In this document: positions 43,801-54,657 of the stretch, one piece after another | How positions within the stretch are numbered: the first letter of the stretch is position 1 | Layout of the letters: the number at the start of each line of letters is the position of its first letter | Source: Pseudomonadota bacterium | GTDB lineage: Bacteria; Pseudomonadota; Gammaproteobacteria; Steroidobacterales; Steroidobacteraceae | Direction: 5' to 3' | NCBI GenBank assembly: GCA_021790795.1 | Contig: JAJYFU010000006.1 | Location: 1 to 54,657, forward strand | DNA length: 54,657 nucleotides | The notes under the pieces: model-generated | What the model saw: only the letters and a program-made list of their open reading frames with translations | Database searches by the model: none | What the model was told of the DNA's origin: nothing | Translations under genes and position numbers: made by a program

Positions 43801-44631
43801 TCATAGATCGATGTGACCTTCGAAGGCGACTTGAGCCGGTCCGGTCAGCCAGATGGGCTCGCCGGGGCCACCCCAGCTGACGAGCAGCTCGCCGCCGCGC
43901 GCGCCGACGCTGACCTCGCGATCGAGCAGGCCCCAGCGGCGCCCGACCGCCACCGCCGCGCATGCGCCGGTGCCGCAGGCGAGCGTCTCGCCGGCGCCGC
44001 GCTCGTACACGCGCAGACGGATGTGCGAGCGGTCCAGCACCTGCATGAACCCGGCGTTGACCCGCTTGGGAAAGCGCCGATGATGCTCGATCGCCGGACC
44101 CAGGCGCGCCACCGGCGCCGTGTCGACCGAGTCGACGGCGAGTACGGCATGGGGATTGCCGATCGAGACCGCGCCGATCTCGAGCGCCTCGCCGTCGACC
44201 TCGAGGCGATAGCGGTCGGCTTCCTGTGGCGCATCGAACGGCAGGGCGGCTGGATCGAAGCGCACCGGCCCCATATCCACCGAGACCGGTCCGCCGGGCC
44301 GCACTCGCGCGTGCACCAGCCCGGCCGGACTGTCGAGCGTGACGGCGCCGCCGCGGCCGGCGCCGCGCCCCGCAAGCAATGCGGCAATGCAGCGTGCACC
44401 GTTGCCGCACTGCTCCACTTCGCGCCCGTCGGCGTTGAAGATGCGGTAGAACGCGTCCGTTTCGGCTCGCTGCGGCGGTTGCAGCAGCAGCGCCTGATCG
44501 AATCCGATGCCGGTGTGACGGTCGGCGAGCCGGCGCAGCTGCTCCTGCGCCAGCGGCGAGGGCCCGGCCGGCGCATCGAACACCGCGAAGTCGTTGCCGA
44601 GACCGTGCATCTTGGTGAAGCCGATGCGCAT
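43801..44631 (-). CDS. dapF: Diaminopimelate epimerase
   Basis: 276 residues. The two catalytic cysteines are in QCGNGARC and ACGTGAC, and the N-terminal FTKMHGLGNDFAV is diagnostic. It converts LL- to meso-diaminopimelate for lysine and peptidoglycan. I chose the ATG at 44631 because it gives the family start (MRIGFTKMHG); another ATG 12 bases upstream is possible. First gene of the dapF-DUF484-xerC-hslVU run. Confidence 0.95.
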   Translation of the reverse strand: MRIGFTKMHGLGNDFAVFDAPAGPSPLAQEQLRRLADRHTGIGFDQALLLQPPQRAETDAFYRIFNADGREVEQCGNGARCIAALLAGRGAGRGGAVTLDSPAGLVHARVRPGGPVSVDMGPVRFDPAALPFDAPQEADRYRLEVDGEALEIGAVSIGNPHAVLAVDSVDTAPVARLGPAIEHHRRFPKRVNAGFMQVLDRSHIRLRVYERGAGETLACGTGACAAVAVGRRWGLLDREVSVGARGGELLVSWGGPGEPIWLTGPAQVAFEGHIDL

Positions 44632-44664
44632 CGGCGCGAGCATACCGTAACTGCCAGCCCGCGG

Positions 44665-45396
44665 TCAGACCCTGAACCGCTCGCGCAGCTCGCCGGCGAG
44701 TCGGCGGCTAACCGGTAATGGAGTGGAACACCCGCGCAGCAGGACGCAGTAGCGCCCGTCCGCGTCGCGCACGATGCGCTGCAGGTGGCGGGTATTGACC
44801 AGTGTATTGCGATGGATGCGCACGAATTCCGCCTCGAGATCCTCCTCGAGCGTGCGCAGCGACTCCTCGATCAGGTCTTCGCCCTGGGTGTGCCGGACCG
44901 TGGTGTATTTCTGATCCGCCTGGAAATACAGAATCTCTTCCACGGCGATCAGGCTGACTTGATCGCGGCGCCGTGCCGCGATGTGCGTCCGGCCACGGGC
45001 GCCGGTCGCCGCGGCCAACTGCCGCAGCTGCGGACGCGTCAGCCGTCCCGCATGCGCGAGCGCCGCGGCGAGCTTGTCCTTGCGGATGGGCTTGAGGAGA
45101 TAGCCGGCCGCGTGCGTTTCGAAGGCATGGACCGCATATTGATCGTATGCGGTGGTGAAAATGACCGCGGGTGGTTCCTGCAGAGCGCTCAGGTGACGCG
45201 CCGTCTCGATGCCGTCCAGTCCGGGCATGCGCACATCGAGCAGCACGACATCCGGCGCCAGTCGCACCGCCTGCTCGAGCGCCTCGAGCCCCGTGGACGC
45301 CTCCCCGGCGATCTGCGCGTCGCCGATTTCCGCGAACAGCTGCCCGAGCCGCTCGCGCGCCGGCGGCTCGTCATCGACGATGAGCACCCTGAGCAT
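44665..45396 (-). CDS. algR: LytTR response regulator, AlgR-like
   Basis: 243 residues: receiver domain with phosphorylation Asp in VVLLDVRMPGLDG, Thr in IFTTAYD, Lys in LLKPIRKD, then a LytTR DNA-binding domain (VEEILYFQADQKYTTV, FVRIHRNTLVN). Order argH-fimS-algR matches the Pseudomonas algZ/algR locus, which controls type IV pili and alginate there. It starts 9 bases after the kinase gene. Confidence 0.9.
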   Translation of the reverse strand: MLRVLIVDDEPPARERLGQLFAEIGDAQIAGEASTGLEALEQAVRLAPDVVLLDVRMPGLDGIETARHLSALQEPPAVIFTTAYDQYAVHAFETHAAGYLLKPIRKDKLAAALAHAGRLTRPQLRQLAAATGARGRTHIAARRRDQVSLIAVEEILYFQADQKYTTVRHTQGEDLIEESLRTLEEDLEAEFVRIHRNTLVNTRHLQRIVRDADGRYCVLLRGCSTPLPVSRRLAGELRERFRV

Positions 45397-45405
45397 GATC
45401 TGCCC

Positions 45406-46533
45406 TCAGCCTCCCGCGCCGCTCGCTGGCGCCAGCGCCGGAATGTACGGAAACCGCAGCGTCACGATATATTCCTCGTCGAATCGGCCGGCCTTCAGCA
45501 GCGCCCGCGCGCCGTAGTGCAGCGTCAGACGCTCACGGATGTTCTGCAGCGCGAGCTGATTGCCCTCATGCTCGCGCACCCGCGCACCGAGTGGATTGCG
45601 CACCACCAGCGAGAGCAGTTCGCCGGCGCGCTCACCGTTGATTTCGACGATGCCGCCGGCCGGTCGCGGTTCGATGCCGTGGTAGATCGCGTTCTCGAGC
45701 AGCGGCTGCAGCAGCAGCCCCGGCACACGCGCATCGAGCGGCAGGGTCTCGACACGCCAGACCACGCGCAGCCGCTCGCCGAGACGCAGCTGCTCGATGC
45801 GCTGATAGGTGCGTGCGATCTCGAGCTCATCGGCGAGCGTAATGGTCTCGAGCGGCTCGGCAAGCGAGGCCCGAAACAGGTCGGCCAGATCCTGCACGGC
45901 CTGCTCGGCCTCGCGCGGCGCCGTGCGAGTCAGCGCGGCGATGGTGTTCATGCTGTTGAACAGGAAATGCGGACGGATACGCGCCTGCAGGGCGTGCACC
46001 CGCGCCGCGGCGCGCAGCTCGATGTTGCGCCGCCATTGGTGCGTGACGTAGAAATAGCGCAGCGTCACGGCCGCGATGACGAAGCCGATGGCCGTGTTGC
46101 GCATCACGAACGGCCCGAGGCGCCGCGGGAACAGAGTGTTCGCGCCGGCGGCCCGTACCAGATGCGAGTGGCCGAGCAGAAACACGCCGGCGGATACCGC
46201 CGCGACCACCGCGGTCATCAGCACCAGCGCGACGCTCGAGCCCCGTTGCTCCCCGAGCCGCGCGAGCAGCGGGCGCAGCACGCACAGCAGCGCCGCCGAC
46301 ATCAATCCGACCCACAGGAGAAACAGCGAGCTGAGCGCCAGCTCCGACCAGAAGCCCTGCGCCGCGCTGCGCGCGATCGATACCACGATGGCGGTCAGTT
46401 CCGCCACGACGACGATGGCGAACGCGGCCCGCGAAGCACAGAAATTCGGGAGATAGAAGGCGTCGCCGCCGCGGAAGGCCCGTTCCGAAGGCGCCGGCCG
46501 CGGCAGATTCTGAGAGCGCACCTGGCCGATCAC
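45406..46533 (-). CDS. fimS: AlgZ/FimS-type sensor histidine kinase
   Basis: 375 residues. Several membrane helices in the N-terminal half, then the His-kinase domain of the LytS/AlgZ class: phosphorylation-site motif RPHFLFNSMNTIAAL, N box QPLLENAIYHGIEPR and NIRERL. It partners with the AlgR-like regulator directly downstream. Start uncertain: GTG at 46533 is preceded at 6 bases by CATAAT (46540-46545), suggesting a leaderless start; GTG at 46521 is the alternative. The 270 bases up to argH contain no supported gene. Confidence 0.85.
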   Translation of the reverse strand: MIGQVRSQNLPRPAPSERAFRGGDAFYLPNFCASRAAFAIVVVAELTAIVVSIARSAAQGFWSELALSSLFLLWVGLMSAALLCVLRPLLARLGEQRGSSVALVLMTAVVAAVSAGVFLLGHSHLVRAAGANTLFPRRLGPFVMRNTAIGFVIAAVTLRYFYVTHQWRRNIELRAAARVHALQARIRPHFLFNSMNTIAALTRTAPREAEQAVQDLADLFRASLAEPLETITLADELEIARTYQRIEQLRLGERLRVVWRVETLPLDARVPGLLLQPLLENAIYHGIEPRPAGGIVEINGERAGELLSLVVRNPLGARVREHEGNQLALQNIRERLTLHYGARALLKAGRFDEEYIVTLRFPYIPALAPASGAGG

Positions 46534-46802
46534 AGCGGCATTATGCCTGAACCGTCGGCGCGAAAGCGCGCGGCCTCCGGGTCGCACGGCGCACCGGACA
46601 TGCCTAGACGGCATGCCGCCCGGGTGCGCCGCCGGAACTGGCTCGGGCACCCCGTGGACATTGAACTTCAAGTCCATGAGGCTGCGAATCGAAAAATGCA
46701 CCGCAGTGCTGATCTTGTGGATCCGGCGGCCGGGGCGGAACGTCGCGGTCATGGGGGCCGACAGTGCGCCGGCGGCGAGCCTGCTGCGCTGGGAGGCCTG
46801 GT

Positions 46803-47993
46803 CTATTCCGATCCCTTCAGTTTCGCCGCCACGCGCCGGTAGGCCTCGCGAAAGGGAATGCCCTCGCGCACGACCAGGCGATTGGCTTCCTCGGCGGCGT
46901 GGATGGCCGGGTCCAACCGGATGCGCTCGGTTCGGAACGAGAGCGCGTCGAGCGCACCGGGCAGGATACCGAGCGTCTCCAGCGCCAGATCGATGGCGCG
47001 GAACAGCGGAAACTTCAACAGCTGCAGATCGCGTTGGTAGCCCGACGGAAGCTTGGCACAGATGGCCAAGGCCTCCAGCAGGCATGCCTGGGCGGTGGCC
47101 GAGCGGCCACGGATCAGCTCGAAGACGTCCGGATTGCGCTTCTGCGGCATGATCGAGGAGCCGGTGGTGAACGCCTCCGGCAGCCGCACGAAGCCGAATT
47201 CCTCCGTGTAGAACAGCAGCACGTCGGCGGCCAGGCGTCCGGCGTCCTGCAGCAGGACGGTGACGTGGAAGAGCAGCTCCGCCTCAGCCTTACCGCGGGA
47301 GAGCTGCACGGCGGTCACGGGTTCCTGCACGGACGCGAATCCGAGCTTCTCGCGTGTTGCCTCGCGGTCGAGCGGCAAACCCGGCGTGCCGTAGCCGGCC
47401 GCCGATCCAAGCGGATTGCGGCCCAGGCGGCGATGGACGTGGCGCAAGGCCTCCGCATCGTCGCGGATCTCGGCGGCGAAGCCGTCAGCCCACAACGGCA
47501 CCGAGCTCGGCATCGCCTGCTGCATGTGGGTGTAGCCCGGGAGCGCGGTGGTCTGCTCGCGCGCGCCGAGCCGCTCCAGCGCCTCCGCGACCGATATCGC
47601 GCCGGCGCTCAGTTCCTCGACCGCCTCGCGCAGATAGAGCCGCAGGGCGGTGAGCACCTGATCGTTACGCGAGCGCCCGAGATGGACACGGCCCCCCGCG
47701 GGGCCGATTCGTTCAATCAACCGGCGCTCCAAGGCGGTGTGCCCATCCTCGTCGGCGAGCTCCACGTGCCACTGCGCCTGGGCATGGGCTTCGCCGAGCG
47801 CCGTCAGGCCGCCGCGGATGGCCTCGAGGTCCGCCTGGGCGAGCAATCCCTGGTCGTGCAGCATCTCGGCATGCGCAATCGACGCGCGGATGTCATAGGC
47901 GATGAGCCGCTCGTCGAGGTTGAAATCCTCCCCGGCGGTGAAGCGCAGCACCCGCTCATCGAGCGGCGCGCCTTTGTCCCACAGCCGGCTCAC
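46803..47993 (-). CDS. argH: Argininosuccinate lyase, short form
   Basis: 396 residues, clearly shorter than the usual 455-470. The fumarase/aspartase-superfamily signature SSIMPQKRNPD is intact, as are HLGRSRNDQV and LPGYTHMQQA. The N-terminus reads SRLWDKG instead of the usual LWGGRF, and the C-terminal domain is curtailed; both features recall the ArgH of Bacteroidetes. It releases arginine and fumarate, the last step of the pathway. It starts with GTG 2 bases after the argB stop and is the last gene of the arg operon. Confidence 0.93.
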   Translation of the reverse strand: MSRLWDKGAPLDERVLRFTAGEDFNLDERLIAYDIRASIAHAEMLHDQGLLAQADLEAIRGGLTALGEAHAQAQWHVELADEDGHTALERRLIERIGPAGGRVHLGRSRNDQVLTALRLYLREAVEELSAGAISVAEALERLGAREQTTALPGYTHMQQAMPSSVPLWADGFAAEIRDDAEALRHVHRRLGRNPLGSAAGYGTPGLPLDREATREKLGFASVQEPVTAVQLSRGKAEAELLFHVTVLLQDAGRLAADVLLFYTEEFGFVRLPEAFTTGSSIMPQKRNPDVFELIRGRSATAQACLLEALAICAKLPSGYQRDLQLLKFPLFRAIDLALETLGILPGALDALSFRTERIRLDPAIHAAEEANRLVVREGIPFREAYRRVAAKLKGSE

Positions 47994-47995
47994 GC

Positions 47996-48934
47996 TCAGC
48001 TCCCCGCACCCTGCTGCTCGGCCGGCGTCAGCGCAGTGACGTCCGCGACGATCAGCGTGCCGGTCCCCTCGTTGGTGAACACCTCGCCGAGGATGCCCTC
48101 CGGCGACTGGTACGACACCACGTGGACGCGGCGCACCCCGCCGCGAATGGCTGCTTCGATGGCCCTGGCCTTCGGCAGCATGCCCTCGGCAATGCCCCCC
48201 TGCTCGCGCAGCTCGCGCAGGCCGGCCAGATCGGTGTAAGAGATCAGCGAGCCCGGATCAGCCCGATCCGCGAGAATTCCCGGCGCGCCGGTGCACAGGA
48301 CGAGTTTCTCGGCGCCGAGCGCCGCGGCCAGAGCGGCGGCCACCGTGTCGGCATTGATGTTGAGCAGGGTTCCTTCGTCGTCGGCCGACAGGGGGCTCAC
48401 CACCGGCATCAGATTGCTGTCCAGGAGCTTGCGCAGCACCATCGGATCGACCACGTCGATGTCGCCCACGAACCCGAAGTCGACCAACTCGCCATTCGAC
48501 GCCATCTTGACCGGCGGACGCTTGTGCGCACGCACCAGGCCGGCATCGACACCGCTTACCCCGACGGCCTCGATGTTCAGCTCGCGGCACACGCCCAGGA
48601 TGTGGGTATTGATCGTGCCGTTGAGCACCATCGCGGTAACGTCTATCGAGCGACGGTCGGTGACACGGCGGCCCTCCACCATGCGCGAGTCCACACCGAG
48701 CGCGTTGGCCAGCTCGGTGACCTGCGGACCGCCGCCGTGCACGAACACGACGCGGACGCCGAAATAATGCAACAGGGCGATCTGCTCGATGAGCGCGCGC
48801 GTCGCGGCGGCGTCGACAAACACCCCGCCGCCGACCTTCACCACGAACGTCTTGCCGCGATACATGCGGATGTAGGGTGCCGCGCTCTTCAGCGCGCGTA
48901 TGGCCAGCGTCTGGTCCTCGGGTTGCATGATCAT
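47996..48934 (-). CDS. argB: N-acetylglutamate kinase
   Basis: 312-residue amino-acid kinase fold. VVKVGGGVF is the phosphate loop, FVHGGGPQVTELA the substrate loop, and ADTVAAALAAALGAEKLVL and LPKARAIEAAIRGGVRRVHVV the nucleotide domain. It is not fused to an acetyltransferase, unlike the argAB protein of Xanthomonas. The start at 48934 (MIMQP) keeps an N-terminal helix of about 20 residues typical of arginine-sensitive kinases. Gap of 44 bases from the carbamoyltransferase gene. Confidence 0.94.
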   Translation of the reverse strand: MIMQPEDQTLAIRALKSAAPYIRMYRGKTFVVKVGGGVFVDAAATRALIEQIALLHYFGVRVVFVHGGGPQVTELANALGVDSRMVEGRRVTDRRSIDVTAMVLNGTINTHILGVCRELNIEAVGVSGVDAGLVRAHKRPPVKMASNGELVDFGFVGDIDVVDPMVLRKLLDSNLMPVVSPLSADDEGTLLNINADTVAAALAAALGAEKLVLCTGAPGILADRADPGSLISYTDLAGLRELREQGGIAEGMLPKARAIEAAIRGGVRRVHVVSYQSPEGILGEVFTNEGTGTLIVADVTALTPAEQQGAGS

Positions 48935-48978: not shown

Positions 48979-49980
48979 TCACAGCCCCTTCAGTAGACGG
49001 TACAACACCGCCATTTGCGCCGTCAGGCGATTGTACGCCTCGCGCAGCACGACGCTGCGCGGGCCGTCGAGGACCTCGTCGGCCACGGCGACGTTGCGCC
49101 GCACGGGCAGGCAATGCATCAGGCGGCAGTCCGGCGCCGCGTGCTCGAACCAATCGCCGCGCACGCACCAGTCGGCGTGCGCGCCGCGCAGACGCGCGTC
49201 CGCCGCCGCATCGCCGTAACTTTCGGTCGCACCCCATTCCTTGGCGTAAATGACATCCGCGCCCGCGAGGGCCTCTCGGCGTACGTCGCTCTCGCGAATC
49301 GAGCCGCCGCTGATCGAAGCGGCGCGGCGCGCCTTGTTCATGATCGCCTGCGGCAGCGCAAAGCCCTCGGGCCGCAGCACCACCACCTCCATTCCGCGCA
49401 GCGCCGCCATGTGCAGCGCCGCGGCCGGGACCGCCAGCGGCAAGGGCCGGGGGTGATAGACCCAGGAAAGCACGAAACGGCCATGCCGCGGCACGCCCAG
49501 ATCGTCCATCGTCTTCCAGTCGGCAAGCGCCTGACAGGGATGATTGACGGCGGACTCGAGGTTGATCAGCGGCTTCGCGGTCAGCGCCGCCATGGCATTG
49601 AAGTTTGTCTCGGCCAGATCGGCGGCCAGATCCCGGCCGTCGGCGAAGGCGCGGATGCCGAGCGCATCGCAATACGAGGCCAGCACCGGGATGCCTTCAC
49701 GCACATGCTCTGCGGCCGCGCCGCTCATCACCGCTCCGAGGCGTGTCTCGAGCTGCCAGGTACCCTGTCCCGGTGTGATCACGAATGAGCCGCCGCCGAG
49801 CCGCGCCATGCCGGCCTGCATCGAGGCCAGCGTGCGCAGCGACGGGTTCATGAACAGCAGGCCCAGGATCTTGCCCTCGAGCGCGCGCGGCTCCGGCTGC
49901 CGCTCCAGCCGTCCGGCCAGATCCAGCAGCGCGAGCACTTCCTCGCGGGCGAGCTCCGCCAGGTCGAGGAAACGCTTCAT
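48979..49980 (-). CDS. argF': N-acylornithine (acetyl/succinyl) carbamoyltransferase
   Basis: 333 residues. The carbamoyl-phosphate loop is FMNPSLRT and the amino-acid end is MHCLPVRRN. The chain follows the N-acylornithine transcarbamylases rather than ArgF: LETRLGAVMSG, IPVLASYCDALGIRAF, HPRPLPLAVP, VIYAKEWGA all align with Bacteroides SOTCase and Xanthomonas AOTCase. At the position that distinguishes them (Pro90 in Bacteroides, Glu92 in Xanthomonas) this protein has Ala90, and the AOTCase carboxylated Lys302 is also Ala. The acyl group is therefore open. The start overlaps the argD stop in ATGA. Confidence 0.88.
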   Translation of the reverse strand: MKRFLDLAELAREEVLALLDLAGRLERQPEPRALEGKILGLLFMNPSLRTLASMQAGMARLGGGSFVITPGQGTWQLETRLGAVMSGAAAEHVREGIPVLASYCDALGIRAFADGRDLAADLAETNFNAMAALTAKPLINLESAVNHPCQALADWKTMDDLGVPRHGRFVLSWVYHPRPLPLAVPAAALHMAALRGMEVVVLRPEGFALPQAIMNKARRAASISGGSIRESDVRREALAGADVIYAKEWGATESYGDAAADARLRGAHADWCVRGDWFEHAAPDCRLMHCLPVRRNVAVADEVLDGPRSVVLREAYNRLTAQMAVLYRLLKGL

Positions 49981-51152
49981 TCTCCGATGTCCGCCAGCGC
50001 CCGGCGCAGCAGGTCGACGTGCTGCGCCTGGAGAATGAAGGGCGGCAGCAACCTTAGGATCTCGGGATCGGTCGCCGTGCCGGCCAGGATGCCGCGGCGC
50101 AGCAGCTCGGCCTGGACCTGCTTGGCCGGGCGGCGCATCCGCAGCCCAAGCAGCAGCCCCTCGCCCTGAATGGCGCTCACCGGCCCGACATGGCAGGTGC
50201 GCCGGATCATCTCCGACATGCGCCGGACGTTCTCCAGCAACTGCTGCGATTCGATCGCCTCGATGCAGGCCAGCAAGGCCGCACAGGCCATCGGACCGCC
50301 GCCGTAGGTCGTGCCGAGCTGACCGATCTTCAATGCGGCCGATACCCGCGCCGACGCCAGGAGCGCCGCGCATGGAAAGCCGTTGCCGAGCGCTTTTGCC
50401 GTCGTCAGCAGGTCCGGCGTGACGCCGTACAGCGTGGCGGCGAATGGTGCGCCCACGCGACCGAGCCCACATTGCACCTCATCGAAGATCAACAGCGCGC
50501 CGACCCGGTCGCAGCGCTCGCGCAATGCGGCGAGGTACGGCGCGCCAAGATCGACGGCGCCGGCCAGTCCCTGCACAGGCTCGACGATGACGGCGGCCGT
50601 GCGCTCGGTCACGTGCTCGGCGATGGCACCGAGGTCGTGCCGCGGCATGAAGCTGACATCGAAGGGCTTGTGGGGAAAGCCGTACCAGGCCTCGGAACCC
50701 CAGGTCACGGCCGCCGCCGCCGCGGTCCGCCCGTGAAAGGCGCCCTCGAGCGCCGCCACGTGCGGCCGGGACGTCATCCGTAGAGCCAGCCGCAGCGCGT
50801 TCTCGTTGGCCTCCGCACCGCTGTTGACCAGGAACACGCTGGCGAGATCGAGTTGGGAAAACGCGAGCAGCCGCTGCGCCGCGCGCGCGCGGATCGCCAT
50901 CGGCAACGCATTGGTCTGGAACTGGCAGGCGCGGGTCTGCGCGGCCAGCGCTTCGGTCCACCCGGGGTGCCCGTAGCCGAGGGCGGCCACCGCGTGCCCG
51001 CCGTACAGATCGAGCAGGCGCTCGCCGCGCGCGTTGATCAGCCAGACCCCCTCGGCGTGATCCACCTCGAACGGATATTGAGCATAGACCGGCGCCAGAC
51101 CGTCGCGGGGTGTCTCGGGCGCGTCGGATTGGACGGGTGTCGTTGCGTTCAT
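49977..51152 (-). CDS. argD: Acetylornithine aminotransferase
   Basis: 391-residue class III PLP transaminase. PLP-binding Lys in TTAKALGNGFP, Asp in IFDEVQCGLGRVG, and NSGAEANENALRLA for the phosphate. It forms N-acylornithine from the semialdehyde with glutamate. AAAGAGAG precedes the ATG, 16 bases after argC. Could also serve succinyl-diaminopimelate in lysine synthesis, as ArgD often does. Confidence 0.93.
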   Translation of the reverse strand: MNATTPVQSDAPETPRDGLAPVYAQYPFEVDHAEGVWLINARGERLLDLYGGHAVAALGYGHPGWTEALAAQTRACQFQTNALPMAIRARAAQRLLAFSQLDLASVFLVNSGAEANENALRLALRMTSRPHVAALEGAFHGRTAAAAAVTWGSEAWYGFPHKPFDVSFMPRHDLGAIAEHVTERTAAVIVEPVQGLAGAVDLGAPYLAALRERCDRVGALLIFDEVQCGLGRVGAPFAATLYGVTPDLLTTAKALGNGFPCAALLASARVSAALKIGQLGTTYGGGPMACAALLACIEAIESQQLLENVRRMSEMIRRTCHVGPVSAIQGEGLLLGLRMRRPAKQVQAELLRRGILAGTATDPEILRLLPPFILQAQHVDLLRRALADIGE

Positions 51153-51168: not shown

Positions 51169-52230
51169 TCAGGTCCAACCGGGCGCCGGTGTCGTGAGGC
51201 CCTCGGTCTCCGCCAGGCCGAACAGCCGGTTCATCCACTGCACCGCACCGCCGGCGGCGCCTTTCGTGAGATTGTCGAGAGTGCACATCACAGCCACCGT
51301 GCGCCCATCGCTCATCGCGCTCAGGTGCGCGTAATTGCTCGCCACGACGTCTTTCACGCGCGGCGGCGCCTCGAGCACCCGCACGAACCGCGAGCCGGCA
51401 TAGAACTCGCGCAGCGCACCGATCACCTCGGCGGTTTCGAGCGGCCGCACCAGCGGCGCCTGCACCGTCACGTGAATACCTCGCGCGAACGGTCCGGAAT
51501 GCGGAACGAACGCGATGTCCGCCCACACACCGGAGGCGGCGTGGGCACACTCGGCGATCTCGGGCGCATGACGGTGCTCCAGCGGGCTGTAGGCATAGAG
51601 ATCGCTGTGACGCACGGGGTGATGGGTACCGGCCACCGGTTTGCGTCCCGACCCTGTGCTACCGGTCACCCCCGATACGAACAGCTGCGGCGGTGTCAGT
51701 CCCAGGGCGAGCAGCGGCACGCTCGCCAGCAGTGTCGCGCTGGCGAAGCAGCCGGGATGGGCCACGTGCGGCGTGCTCGATTCGGCCAGATGCTCCGGCA
51801 CCGCGCAGGTGAAGTGTGCGAGCCGCTGCGGCGCGCCGTGCGGATGTTTGTAGACCCGCTGATACGCGTCGGCGGACCTGAAGCGGAAGTCGGCGGATAT
51901 GTCCACCACGCGCGGCCGGGTGCCGGCGGTCTCGGCGGCGGTGAGCAGGGAATCGATGAGCTGAGCGGAGACTCCGTGCGGCGCGGCACAGAACACCGCG
52001 CTGTGCGGCACGCGGGTCAGCAGCGACTGGATCTCGTTGTGCGGCTGGAAACATGCCTCGCCGTAGGCCGCCGCAAGATGGGGGAAGGCCGTCCCGAGCG
52101 GCTCGCCCGGCTGGCTGTCCGACATCACCGCGCGCACTTCGAAGCGCGGATGACCGGCGAGCAGCCGCAGCAGCTCTCCGGCCACGTAGCCGGTGCCGCC
52201 GAGCACCACGGCGGGAATCCGCTCGCTCAT
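51169..52230 (-). CDS. argC: N-acetyl-gamma-glutamyl-phosphate reductase
   Basis: 353 residues. NADP-binding GGTGYVAGELLRLL opens the protein, the catalytic Cys is in VAHPGCFASATLL, and SGVTGSTGSGRKP plus HRHAPEI follow as in ArgC. It reduces the acylglutamyl phosphate to the semialdehyde. The start ATG overlaps the stop of the upstream P-loop gene by four bases, implying coupled translation. Confidence 0.95.
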   Translation of the reverse strand: MSERIPAVVLGGTGYVAGELLRLLAGHPRFEVRAVMSDSQPGEPLGTAFPHLAAAYGEACFQPHNEIQSLLTRVPHSAVFCAAPHGVSAQLIDSLLTAAETAGTRPRVVDISADFRFRSADAYQRVYKHPHGAPQRLAHFTCAVPEHLAESSTPHVAHPGCFASATLLASVPLLALGLTPPQLFVSGVTGSTGSGRKPVAGTHHPVRHSDLYAYSPLEHRHAPEIAECAHAASGVWADIAFVPHSGPFARGIHVTVQAPLVRPLETAEVIGALREFYAGSRFVRVLEAPPRVKDVVASNYAHLSAMSDGRTVAVMCTLDNLTKGAAGGAVQWMNRLFGLAETEGLTTPAPGWT

Positions 52231-53303
52231 GACTCGCCCGCGCGCGCCAGGCCCACGGCCTCCATGACACGCTCGCCCAGTTGCGCGCCGCTGCTGATGG
52301 CGTTGAAAGCGGATACCCGCAGCTGATCCGTGATCAGATCGACACCGACCTGGTTGTCGGTGGCCGGTCCGGTCACCACGCACGGCTCGATCTCGAAGCG
52401 CTCGCGCAGCAGTTTCACGCCACCCCAGGCCGCCACCGGATCATTGGCCGAAAGCACCACGCCGGTCAGCGCGGCGCGGATGTCGGGACACTCCAGGATC
52501 GCATCCACACCGTAGGTGCCGAGGATGCCGTCGCCCAGCTCGAAGACGATCACGTCGGGCTTGCCGGCGGCGAGCTCGGTCAGCATCGCCCGGGTCAGAG
52601 CCGGGCCATTGACGCGCGTGGTGGTGACGACGCCGAAATCCGTGAAGATCGCGGAGCGGCGCGCGCCGGCATCCTCCATGGCGAGAATGTCGCGCCGCAG
52701 CGAGACACCGGTGGCCTTGAACGCATCGATGGTCAGGCCGCGATGGCGCATGCGGCTGATCACGGCGCAGGCGGCCGCGGTCTTGCCGGCCTCCATGCAC
52801 GTCCCGGCGAGCGCCACGACCGGTACGTTGAGCGTCTCCAGCCGCGCCGACGGATCGAGCTGGCGGTGACCAACCCGCGCCGGTACACCGATGCGCTCGC
52901 CGAGGTAGGGAAAGCGCAGAACGACGCCGATCACCCGGCAGTCGAACGGCTGACCCTTGTCGGGGTTGATCGAATCGCACACCCCGAGTACCCCACCGAT
53001 GTTGAGCATCTGGATCACGTCGCCCACCTTGACCGTCGGCGGGATGTGCCCCGAGTAGCCGAACAGGGCCTTGCGGTGCCCCAATGCGCCGACCACGATG
53101 TCGCCCTTGCGCACCTTGGCCATGCGGCCGCTGCTGAGCTCCAGCTGATTGTAGGTCGCCTTGTTGGTCAGCACCTCGACCACGATCACCACGCCCTCCT
53201 CGGCGGGGATGTCGGCCGCAATGCGCACCTCGTGCGAGAGCGCACACGCTTGGGCCACCGAGGCGATCTTGTCGACGACGACGCTGCGCATGCCGTTGGC
53301 CAT
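52227..53303 (-). CDS. P-loop protein of unknown function embedded in the arginine operon
   Basis: 358 residues, not a recognised arginine enzyme. Residues 1-150 form a beta-rich domain (VRKGDIVVGALGHRKALFGYSG, VKVGDVIQMLNIGG). Residues 160-345 form a P-loop NTPase-like domain: Walker A GTCMEAGKT (167-175), FKATG (195-199), and a Walker-B-like VFELGDG (253-259). The GT..xxGKT...ATG pattern resembles dethiobiotin-synthetase/MobB-type domains and, more loosely, DUF1611 proteins. It starts 1 base after argG and overlaps argC, so it must be made with the pathway enzymes. It occupies a slot where an acylglutamate-forming or deacylating function is otherwise missing. That role is a hypothesis only. 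Confidence 0.75.
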   Translation of the reverse strand: MANGMRSVVVDKIASVAQACALSHEVRIAADIPAEEGVVIVVEVLTNKATYNQLELSSGRMAKVRKGDIVVGALGHRKALFGYSGHIPPTVKVGDVIQMLNIGGVLGVCDSINPDKGQPFDCRVIGVVLRFPYLGERIGVPARVGHRQLDPSARLETLNVPVVALAGTCMEAGKTAAACAVISRMRHRGLTIDAFKATGVSLRRDILAMEDAGARRSAIFTDFGVVTTTRVNGPALTRAMLTELAAGKPDVIVFELGDGILGTYGVDAILECPDIRAALTGVVLSANDPVAAWGGVKLLRERFEIEPCVVTGPATDNQVGVDLITDQLRVSAFNAISSGAQLGERVMEAVGLARAGES

Positions 53304-53304
53304 C

Positions 53305-54537
53305 TCAGGCGCTCTCGGCCGGCGCGCCGGCCCGCCGGTGAAACACGCCGGTCAAGGCGACGATCTTCGAGAAGCCGAGCGCGTCCTGCGCCGTCCACTC
53401 GCCGGCGGCTTCGCCGTAGACACCCTTGGAGGCGCTCATCAGCGAGTGAGGCGACTCGACGCCCTCGATGAACAGATTGCCGGGACGCAGCGCCACCCGT
53501 ACCGTGCCGGTCACGCGCGCCTGCGAGGACTCGAGCAGCGCCTCGATGTCGCGGCAGACCGGATCGAGCAGTTGCCCTTCGTGCACCAGATCGCCGTAGG
53601 GTTGTGCGAGCAGCTCCTTGATGCGCTGCTGGCGGCCGGTCAGGACAAGCTTTTCGAGCTCGCGATGCGCGGTGAGCAGCACCTCGGCGGCCGGTGCCTC
53701 GAACGCTACCCGGCCCTTGGTGCCGATGATGGTATCGCCGAGGTGGATGCCCCGGCCGATGCCGAAGGGCGCGGCGATCGACTCCAGCGCCTCGATCAGC
53801 GCCACCGGCTCGAGCGAGCGGCCGTCGAGGGCCGTCGGCCGGCCGCGCTCGAAGGCGATGACATGGTGCTCGGGCGGGCGCGGACGTGTGAACGCCTCCC
53901 GCGTCAGAACCCAGGCTTCCTCGGGAATGCCGCCCGAGGAGGTCAGGGTCTCCTGGCCGCCGATGGTCACGCCCCACAGGCCTCGGTTGATTGAGTAGGC
54001 CGCACCGAACGGCGGCACCGGCAGACCGCGCTCCTGCAGGAAGGCCAGCTCTTGCGGCCGCTTGAAGGCGCGATCGCGCACCGGGGCGAGGACCTCGAGC
54101 TCCGGCGCGAGCGTGCGCAGCGCGACCTCGAATCGCACCTGGTCGTTGCCGGCTGCGGTGCAGCCGTGCGCGATCATGGAGGTGCCGAGCTTGCGCGCCA
54201 TGTGGGCGAGCGTCTGCGCCTGCATCACCCGCTCGGCGCCCACGCACAGCGGATATACCTGGCCGCGCCGGACATTGCCCATGATCAGGAACCGCAGCAC
54301 CTGCTCGAAGTACTGGGCGCGCGCATCGATCTGGTGATGCTCGATCGCTCCCAGCGCGCGGGCTCGATCCGCGAGCGTGCGGGCTGCCTCGGCATCGATG
54401 CCGCCGGTGTCGACCGTCAACGTGATGACCGGCCGGCGGTAGGTCTCGGTCAGCCAGGGCACCAGGAACGAGGTGTCGAGGCCGCCGGAATAGGCTAGAA
54501 CGATGGGCTGATTGCCCGGAGTGGGAGCTTTGGGCAT
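53305..54537 (-). CDS. argG: Argininosuccinate synthase
   Basis: 410-residue PP-loop ATPase. ATP-binding AYSGGLDTS, MIAHGCTAAGNDQVRFE, and SSGGIPEEAWVLTRE are recognisable. It condenses citrulline with aspartate. Several segments (VDTGGID, YSINRGLWGVTIGG) are those of the ArgG type seen in Bacteroidetes-like operons. It starts 3 bases after the argR stop. Confidence 0.95.
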   Translation of the reverse strand: MPKAPTPGNQPIVLAYSGGLDTSFLVPWLTETYRRPVITLTVDTGGIDAEAARTLADRARALGAIEHHQIDARAQYFEQVLRFLIMGNVRRGQVYPLCVGAERVMQAQTLAHMARKLGTSMIAHGCTAAGNDQVRFEVALRTLAPELEVLAPVRDRAFKRPQELAFLQERGLPVPPFGAAYSINRGLWGVTIGGQETLTSSGGIPEEAWVLTREAFTRPRPPEHHVIAFERGRPTALDGRSLEPVALIEALESIAAPFGIGRGIHLGDTIIGTKGRVAFEAPAAEVLLTAHRELEKLVLTGRQQRIKELLAQPYGDLVHEGQLLDPVCRDIEALLESSQARVTGTVRVALRPGNLFIEGVESPHSLMSASKGVYGEAAGEWTAQDALGFSKIVALTGVFHRRAGAPAESA

Positions 54538-54540
54538 GGG

Positions 54541-54657
54541 CTAGATCCGAAAGAGCGCCTGCAGCCGCGCGACAAGCTCGTCCTGCGCGCGCGGTGAGGC
54601 GGTGGCTATGAAAATCGTGTCGTCGCCGGAAAGGGTGCCGGCAACCTCCGGCCAATC
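54541..54657 (-). CDS. argR: Arginine repressor ArgR, C-terminal end (5' part outside window)
   Basis: The last 38 codons are visible in frame from the right edge, reading EVAGTLSGDDTIFIATA and ending in QALFRI before TAG at 54541-54543. VAGTxxGDDTIF is the arginine-binding hexamerisation motif of ArgR, including the Asp-Asp pair that contacts arginine. Only 3 bases lie between its stop and the argG start, so the repressor heads or joins the operon it should control. The DNA-binding domain is outside the window. Confidence 0.9.
   Translation of the reverse strand, partial: DWPEVAGTLSGDDTIFIATASPRAQDELVARLQALFRI

Follow-up and report, generated by a model that had tools for sequence, protein, structure and literature searches.

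The P-loop protein encoded between argG and argC in the arginine operon studied here, called X below, is probably the N-acylglutamate synthase of its pathway, with succinyl as the likelier acyl group, as judged from gene context and aligned residues. The observations behind this proposal are the operon itself, the absence of the testable first-step synthases from X-bearing genomes, the mutual exclusion of X and a known synthase domain, the diagnostic residues of the carbamoyltransferase ArgF' and the P-loop fold. In the proposed scheme, X would acylate L-glutamate at its amino group, most likely with succinyl, and so stand in for the ArgA, ArgJ and NAT-type synthases. ArgB, ArgC and ArgD would next act on the product, followed by the succinylornithine-type ArgF', and the succinyl group would be removed before ArgG and ArgH, by ArgE where it is present and otherwise by DapE of lysine synthesis.

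The window, that is, the whole stretch of DNA analysed (54,657 nucleotides), is a complete contig. The assembly comprises 2.81 Mb in 186 contigs and is 95.3% complete; therefore, the absence of any single gene is not proof. The features of the arginine operon and of X are as follows.

54544..54657, minus strand: C-terminal part of argR, the last 38 aa, truncated where the contig stops (matches the end of TIGR01529 at E 3e-6, under the cut-off)
53305..54537, minus strand: argG, argininosuccinate synthase (TIGR00032, 291.9 bits, cut-off 268.2)
52227..53303, minus strand: X, P-loop protein, candidate N-acyl(succinyl)glutamate synthase (open reading frame of 358 aa)
52779..52805, minus strand: Walker A motif GTCMEAGKT, X residues 167-175 (P-loop pattern kept by all 131 X-clade rows)
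52518..52541, minus strand: E-L-G-D-G-I-L-G motif, X residues 255-262, candidate metal/phosphate-handling loop
51169..52230, minus strand: argC, N-acyl-gamma-glutamyl-phosphate reductase (TIGR01850, 282.1 bits, cut-off 233.6)
49977..51152, minus strand: argD, N-acylornithine aminotransferase (best families acetylornithine transaminases, below cut-off)
48979..49980, minus strand: argF', acetyl/succinylornithine-kind carbamoyltransferase (NF003384 over cut-off; A90, P181, A298)
47996..48931, minus strand: argB, single-domain N-acylglutamate kinase with no acetyltransferase domain (TIGR00761, 209.3 bits, cut-off 151.3)
46803..47993, minus strand: argH, argininosuccinate lyase (TIGR00838, 305.1 bits, cut-off 279.5)

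The minus-strand gene order is thus argR (cut by the contig end)-argG-X-argC-argD-argF'-argB-argH, the operon that an earlier note on this DNA had read from the sequence. When gene identities were checked with the curated cut-offs of NCBIfam, argG, argC, argB, argH and argF' exceeded them, and argD and the argR end fell below. ArgB matches TIGR01890 over positions 3-280 only. Beyond argH (43801-46842 of the window), dapF-like, LytTR-type response regulator and sensor-kinase-like genes were recognized by reading the open reading frames.

The position and motifs of X are also as the earlier note had described them. X starts 1 base past argG (TGA-G-ATG at the joint), its stop codon overlaps the argC start (ATGA), and besides the P-loop at residues 167-175 it contains an ATG motif, as KATG, at residues 196-199. 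Among X-clade rows with a minimum length of 300 aa and a minimum identity of 40%, a set that contains duplicates of the same contig, all 131 keep both the P-loop pattern G[T/S]xMxxGKT and the E-x-GDG pattern, and the residues E255, G257, D258 and G259 of X are invariant in an alignment of 18 sequences.

In Pfam and NCBIfam, X gave sub-threshold matches only. The earlier note had likened X to the DUF1611 family member DgcN, a D-glutamate N-acetyltransferase, and had proposed profile comparisons with DUF1611, BioD and MobB. By sequence, the likeness to DgcN did not hold: PF07755 scored 15.8 bits against a cut-off of 25, and hhalign comparison of alignment A2 with the true DgcN profile (A4, from 13 of 24 DUF1611 loci, which matches 7xrj at 593 bits) aligned only 50 P-loop columns at a probability of 9.4%, the aligned DgcN proteins having GKM at the site of GKT in X. 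MobB (13.4 bits, cut-off 26.6) and BioD (TIGR00176, 12.7 bits, cut-off 76.2; dethiobiotin synthetase chains in the profile search at E 0.46) were likewise rejected. No GNAT, NAT or ArgJ match was listed for X in Pfam or NCBIfam (maximum E 10, with filters that drop most matches above 0.1), and a phmmer search of X against the PDB gave no match.

The predicted model of X is fair to good over residues 151-358 (block means averaging approximately 86) and poor over residues 1-150; the N-terminal domain predicted alone reached a pLDDT of 59, and its fold search gave no match at E <= 0.001. In VIA-align comparisons, the C-terminal model matched CTP synthase (Z 16.7, 195 residues, 3.4 Å), TM0796 and dethiobiotin synthetase (Z 16.2 each) and a DUF1611 protein (Z 16.1), four fold matches that tie, and, lower down, DgcN itself (7xrj; Z 14.9, 182 residues, 3.0 Å), which is no closer by fold than CTP synthase or dethiobiotin synthetase. 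As regards the structural part of the suggested DUF1611 relationship, the C-terminal domain scores Z 14.9-16.2 with DUF1611 structures, within the range of other P-loop families. The DUF1611 structures 2g0t and 2obn (Z 16.1-16.2) are the only ones among the 50 matches listed that align from X residue 54, which lends some support to a very distant common origin of X and DUF1611 and weighs against rejecting it outright. The CTP synthase and dethiobiotin synthetase matches listed are 11-19% identical to X, and the N-terminal part of X is unmatched. No GNAT or ArgJ entry occurs among the 50 matches in each fold list, which is not evidence against such a fold.

The distribution of X was surveyed in several genome sets. 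In the named genome collection, relatives of X were found in 314 stretches, of which the best 80 were kept; these named relatives come from metagenome assemblies, several of which bear the label Steroidobacteraceae. Among these best 80 of 314 loci, argG lies at most 330 bases upstream of X in 79 and argC downstream in 78, and in the three loci that lack an argG or argC neighbour, X is at a contig end. The argG-X-argC arrangement is not due to chance. An argR-like open reading frame, identified by motif, precedes argG in 76 of the 78 relatives with room for it. A selection of 17 loci from different families contains argR, argG, X, argC, argD, argF', argB and argH without exception (17/17); the next most common real neighbours, by reading DNA polymerase I-like and ABC-transporter genes, occur in 7 of 17, the other neighbour groups in 8-16 of the 17 are shadow open reading frames (judged from two members per group), and no GNAT or M20 gene is found among the neighbour groups listed. 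One record titled Klebsiella pneumoniae (L081) contains the operon with X at 78% identity and is probably a mislabelled metagenome bin.

Within the order, an X orthologue is present in 47 of 60 genomes (the window's own genome and 59 relatives), and 2 further genomes contain only an X paralogue at 30-37% identity. Some contigs of the named collection are the same as contigs of this set, and the two sets were not summed. Of 370 genomes sampled from the class, 32 gave an X match at E <= 1e-10, 10 of them at 42-100% and 22 at 26-35% identity. The X clade was defined as the P-loop protein between argG and argC, and this is where it was found: homologues at 42-46% identity from three other families show argG-X-argC in 5/5 genomes, with argC approximately 650 bases away in one and a contig too short for argF' in another. 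Among 397 genomes sampled from the phylum, 5 matched at E <= 1e-30, including the window's own genome. One of these five, G626 (L236, C23:6000-23000), lies outside the class and has the order argB-argC-X (argC by reading) with neither argG nor argF' adjoining, and the neighbours of X in this genome are early pathway steps. Viral contigs contained no relative with queries P0001 or A3 and one 54-residue fragment with A2, defence-system models gave no match, and no paper on X was found in the open-access literature searched.

The absence of a first-step enzyme from the window had led the earlier note to propose that X supplies a missing acyl-group step and to ask whether genomes with X lack argA and argJ elsewhere. 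The survey, which extended the search to whole genomes for ArgA, ArgJ, NAT and M20 enzymes, agrees with both: X fits the step, and ArgJ and the NAT domain, as well as ArgA over its cut-off, are absent from X-bearing genomes. ArgJ was found in 0 of 60 order genomes, with control matches in 10 of 14 genomes. The ArgA model exceeded its cut-off in 0 of 60 order genomes and in 0 of 8 further X-bearing genomes, a narrow test that reached the cut-off in just 1 of 14 controls; below the cut-off it matched in 57 of the 60, mostly via the kinase domain of ArgB. The fused N-acetylglutamate synthase-kinase, recognized by its NAT domain, occurs in 9 of the 60 order genomes; the NAT test is limited as well, with matches in 0 of 14 controls. 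X-bearing genomes are thus without every known version of the first-step enzyme that could be tested for. Moreover, X and NAT exclude each other: among the 60 genomes, 47 have X, 9 have NAT, none has both and 4 have neither, which gives a Fisher P of 4.8e-8 per genome (genomes being not independent) and of 0.007 over 16 families. The four with neither are G031 (72% complete), G045, G048 and G058; in the last three, neither ArgF' nor a match to the ArgA/kinase model was found.

The proteins of the X-type and synthase-kinase-type arginine operons are only 27-45% identical, which indicates that the whole operon is the unit exchanged and that X and the single-domain ArgB travel together. Consequently, the exclusion partly reflects the swapping of whole operons; one operon type holds the synthase domain, and the other holds X in its stead. 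As an observation of its own, L175-L184 and L128-L135 represent two different arginine operons distributed by family in one order, a displacement on the scale of the operon. In G044, an M20 match lies between argG and the synthase-kinase gene.

It is conceivable that X acts as an ATP/GTP-dependent regulator, chaperone or complex-forming factor and that an undetected GNAT elsewhere in the genome performs the first step, for example, one of the ArgA2/BT3761 kind; the absence tests covered the ArgA model, ArgJ and NAT. The model of X also matches HypB and SRP GTPases, MobB is among its sub-threshold matches, and weak GNAT stretches detected by the ArgA profile occur in many X-bearing order genomes and in 3 of the 8 further ones. 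However, no GNAT-like stretch is detected with this profile at E <= 0.001 in seven X-bearing genomes that are 94-100% complete (G037, G041, G046, G047, G052, G055 and G056), and the GNAT match of the window's own genome is ArsN2 (152 bits, cut-off 125) rather than ArgA. In addition, X occurs in the order only where the NAT synthase is absent, and a mere regulator would leave the missing step unexplained. This explanation is accordingly regarded as unlikely.

The synthase reading gains an acyl group from ArgF'. According to the review PMC4581275, the succinylornithine enzyme has A/S/P/V/Q, P and V/I/E where the acetylornithine enzyme has Glu92, Asn185 and Lys302, and the GapMind paper (PMC7311316) describes the first of these positions as favouring the succinyl substrate when it is S, P, A or V. 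Residues A90, P181 and A298 of the window ArgF' correspond to positions 92, 185 and 302 of the acetylornithine enzyme (AOTC), so that it reads A/P/A. ArgF' could be read in 40 of the 47 X-bearing order genomes, 31 as A/P/A and 9 as A/P/V; by these residues, two of the three sites are of the succinylornithine type, and the third is not of the acetyl type. Among the best 80 of the 314 named loci, 66 ArgF' read A/P/A, 1 reads A/P/V and 1 reads A/P with the third site cut; 3 are too short to align, and 9 loci have no argF' on the contig. (Alignment A1 contains 40 of the 80 named loci together with X, and A5 contains 46 of the 80 together with the window.) In the distant X-bearing families (42-46%), the 4 readable ArgF' of 5 read P/P/E in 3 and V/P/E in 1. 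Of the 9 synthase-kinase genomes, 7 read E/N/K, 1 reads E/N/Q and 1 reads E/N followed by a truncated third site; where readable, their ArgF' carries acetylornithine-type residues in all 9, apart from the one Gln at the third site. Because of these diagnostic residues, the acyl group is probably succinyl. The Ala of the window ArgF' at position 302 is in neither published list, being neither Lys nor V/I/E, and is a weak point of this reading. The top PDB matches of the window ArgF' tie at 196 bits and are acetylornithine enzyme variants, 3l02 with Ala at 92 and 3m4n with Ala at 302; scores of 193.7 and 176 bits were obtained with the commoner form of that enzyme and with the Bacteroides-type chains, respectively. 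Two NAT-type genomes, G040 (L185) and G051 (L186), have a second carbamoyltransferase that is 49-50% identical to the window ArgF', lies away from the arginine cluster and has other residues at the diagnostic sites.

The removal of the acyl group was approached by a search for the M20 family of deacylases. In the window's own genome, there are two M20 proteins, DapE (over its cut-off) and a dipeptidase-like protein below every cut-off listed, and an M20-type ArgE was not found. Similarly, a single M20 protein, DapE, was detected at E <= 1e-10 in both G050 (99% complete) and G018 (90% complete). The absence of argE that the earlier note stated for the window thus holds, for the M20 type, in the search of the own genome, but ArgE is present in at least two X-bearing genomes, G046 and G052. 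Since X occurs both with and without ArgE, it is unlikely simply to replace ArgE or to act as a deacylase. Where ArgE is missing, DapE may remove succinate from succinylcitrulline.

These data also bear on the idea that X is a synthase of N-acetylglutamate or another acyl product and that the ArgF' residues mislead. In its favour, NCBIfam names the window ArgF' N-acetylornithine carbamoyltransferase (NF003384, over cut-off), its third site is outside the published list, and ArgE accompanies X in some genomes. However, sites 92 and 185 are succinyl-type in every X-bearing order ArgF' read and the distant families show P/P/E or V/P/E, and the only M20 protein of G018 and G050 at the threshold above is a desuccinylase; this idea seems quite improbable. 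That X recycles the acyl group as ArgJ does, from N-acylcitrulline or N-acylornithine to glutamate, and thus covers both the first and the deacylation step, would suit the own genome and G050, which have neither a testable known synthase nor an M20-type ArgE, but X persists alongside ArgE in G046 and G052, and its conserved Walker A motif suggests a nucleotide or CoA, neither of which ArgJ transacylation is known to need, which makes this option highly improbable.

For X as the N-acylglutamate synthase, two donors can be envisaged. By analogy with dethiobiotin and CTP synthases, succinate and ATP might react via an acyl phosphate; alternatively, the P-loop might bind succinyl-CoA. The conserved GKT of X, versus the GKM of DgcN, favours the use of a nucleotide and hence an ATP-dependent ligase, and our guess is that X is somewhat more likely to be such a ligase than a CoA transferase. 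Against the synthase reading, it counts that no homologue of X with a known reaction was found and that the fold matches many P-loop enzymes.

Relatives of X also occur outside arginine operons. A profile comparison of X with 12 of these non-arginine relatives, aligned, shows homology across 306 columns (E 5e-56). In 8 of 17 such loci (L121, L122, L123, L124, L126, L224, L227 and L237), the protein shares 51% identity or more with the one in L122; in this closer group an M20 gene lies directly before the relative of X on the same strand in 8 of 8. No such M20 match was found in the 8 loci with more distant proteins, and L239 gave no match at all. The one M20 protein scanned came closest to a 'hydrolase' family (241.8 bits, cut-off 357) and to glutamate carboxypeptidase (228.2 bits, cut-off 349). 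A flavin-reductase-like gene, by reading, precedes the M20 gene in at least 4 loci. The M20 gene and the relative of X form a conserved cassette. A neighbour that may hydrolyse N-acyl amino acids is in keeping with N-acyl chemistry but proves nothing.

A wider proposal, put forward tentatively, is that X represents the first member of a new family of P-loop ligases or transferases and would make N-succinyl-L-glutamate, that a succinyl arginine pathway would operate in Pseudomonadota with DapE shared where ArgE is missing, and that the M20-paired relatives would likewise catalyse the formation of N-acyl amino acids. PMC7311316 and PMC4490483 describe the first step in the synthesis of arginine as the most variable of the pathway and as a known annotation gap. 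If X fills this step, the arginine pathway that seems incomplete in many genomes of the order could be completed on paper. The succinyl route would then also be represented outside Bacteroidetes, and a reaction could be assigned to a protein that is below every Pfam and NCBIfam cut-off. In addition, whether DapE serves two pathways becomes a testable question.

Several known systems can be compared with the operon described here. The succinyl-arginine pathway of Bacteroides (PMC7311316 and PMC9026213) is similar in its succinylornithine-type carbamoyltransferase and in having no ArgA or ArgJ. In Bacteroidetes, succinylglutamate synthesis is assigned to a GNAT, ArgA2 (PMC9026213); the first step in Bacteroides is thus that of the ArgA2/BT3761 GNAT, whereas the candidate here is an unrelated P-loop protein and the operon is in Pseudomonadota. 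The bifunctional NAGS/K and AOTCase system of Xanthomonas and Maricaulis (PMC4490483) likewise has an arginine operon with an acetyl/succinylornithine-kind carbamoyltransferase, and operons of this type occur in the 9 NAT genomes of the order to which the window belongs; X-bearing operons differ from it in their single-domain ArgB, the absence of a NAT domain and the succinyl-type residues of ArgF'. DgcN and the other DUF1611 proteins (7xrj, 2obn and 2g0t) share the C-terminal P-loop fold with X, and DgcN N-acylates glutamate (PMC11747546), but X is below the Pfam cut-off, aligns with DgcN over 50 columns and has GKT where DgcN has GKM. Dethiobiotin synthetase, which has the GxxxxGKT pattern, and CTP synthase are among the best fold matches of X; they differ in serving other pathways and in their low identity to X. 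Finally, the M20-paired P-loop family is homologous to X but lies outside arginine operons.
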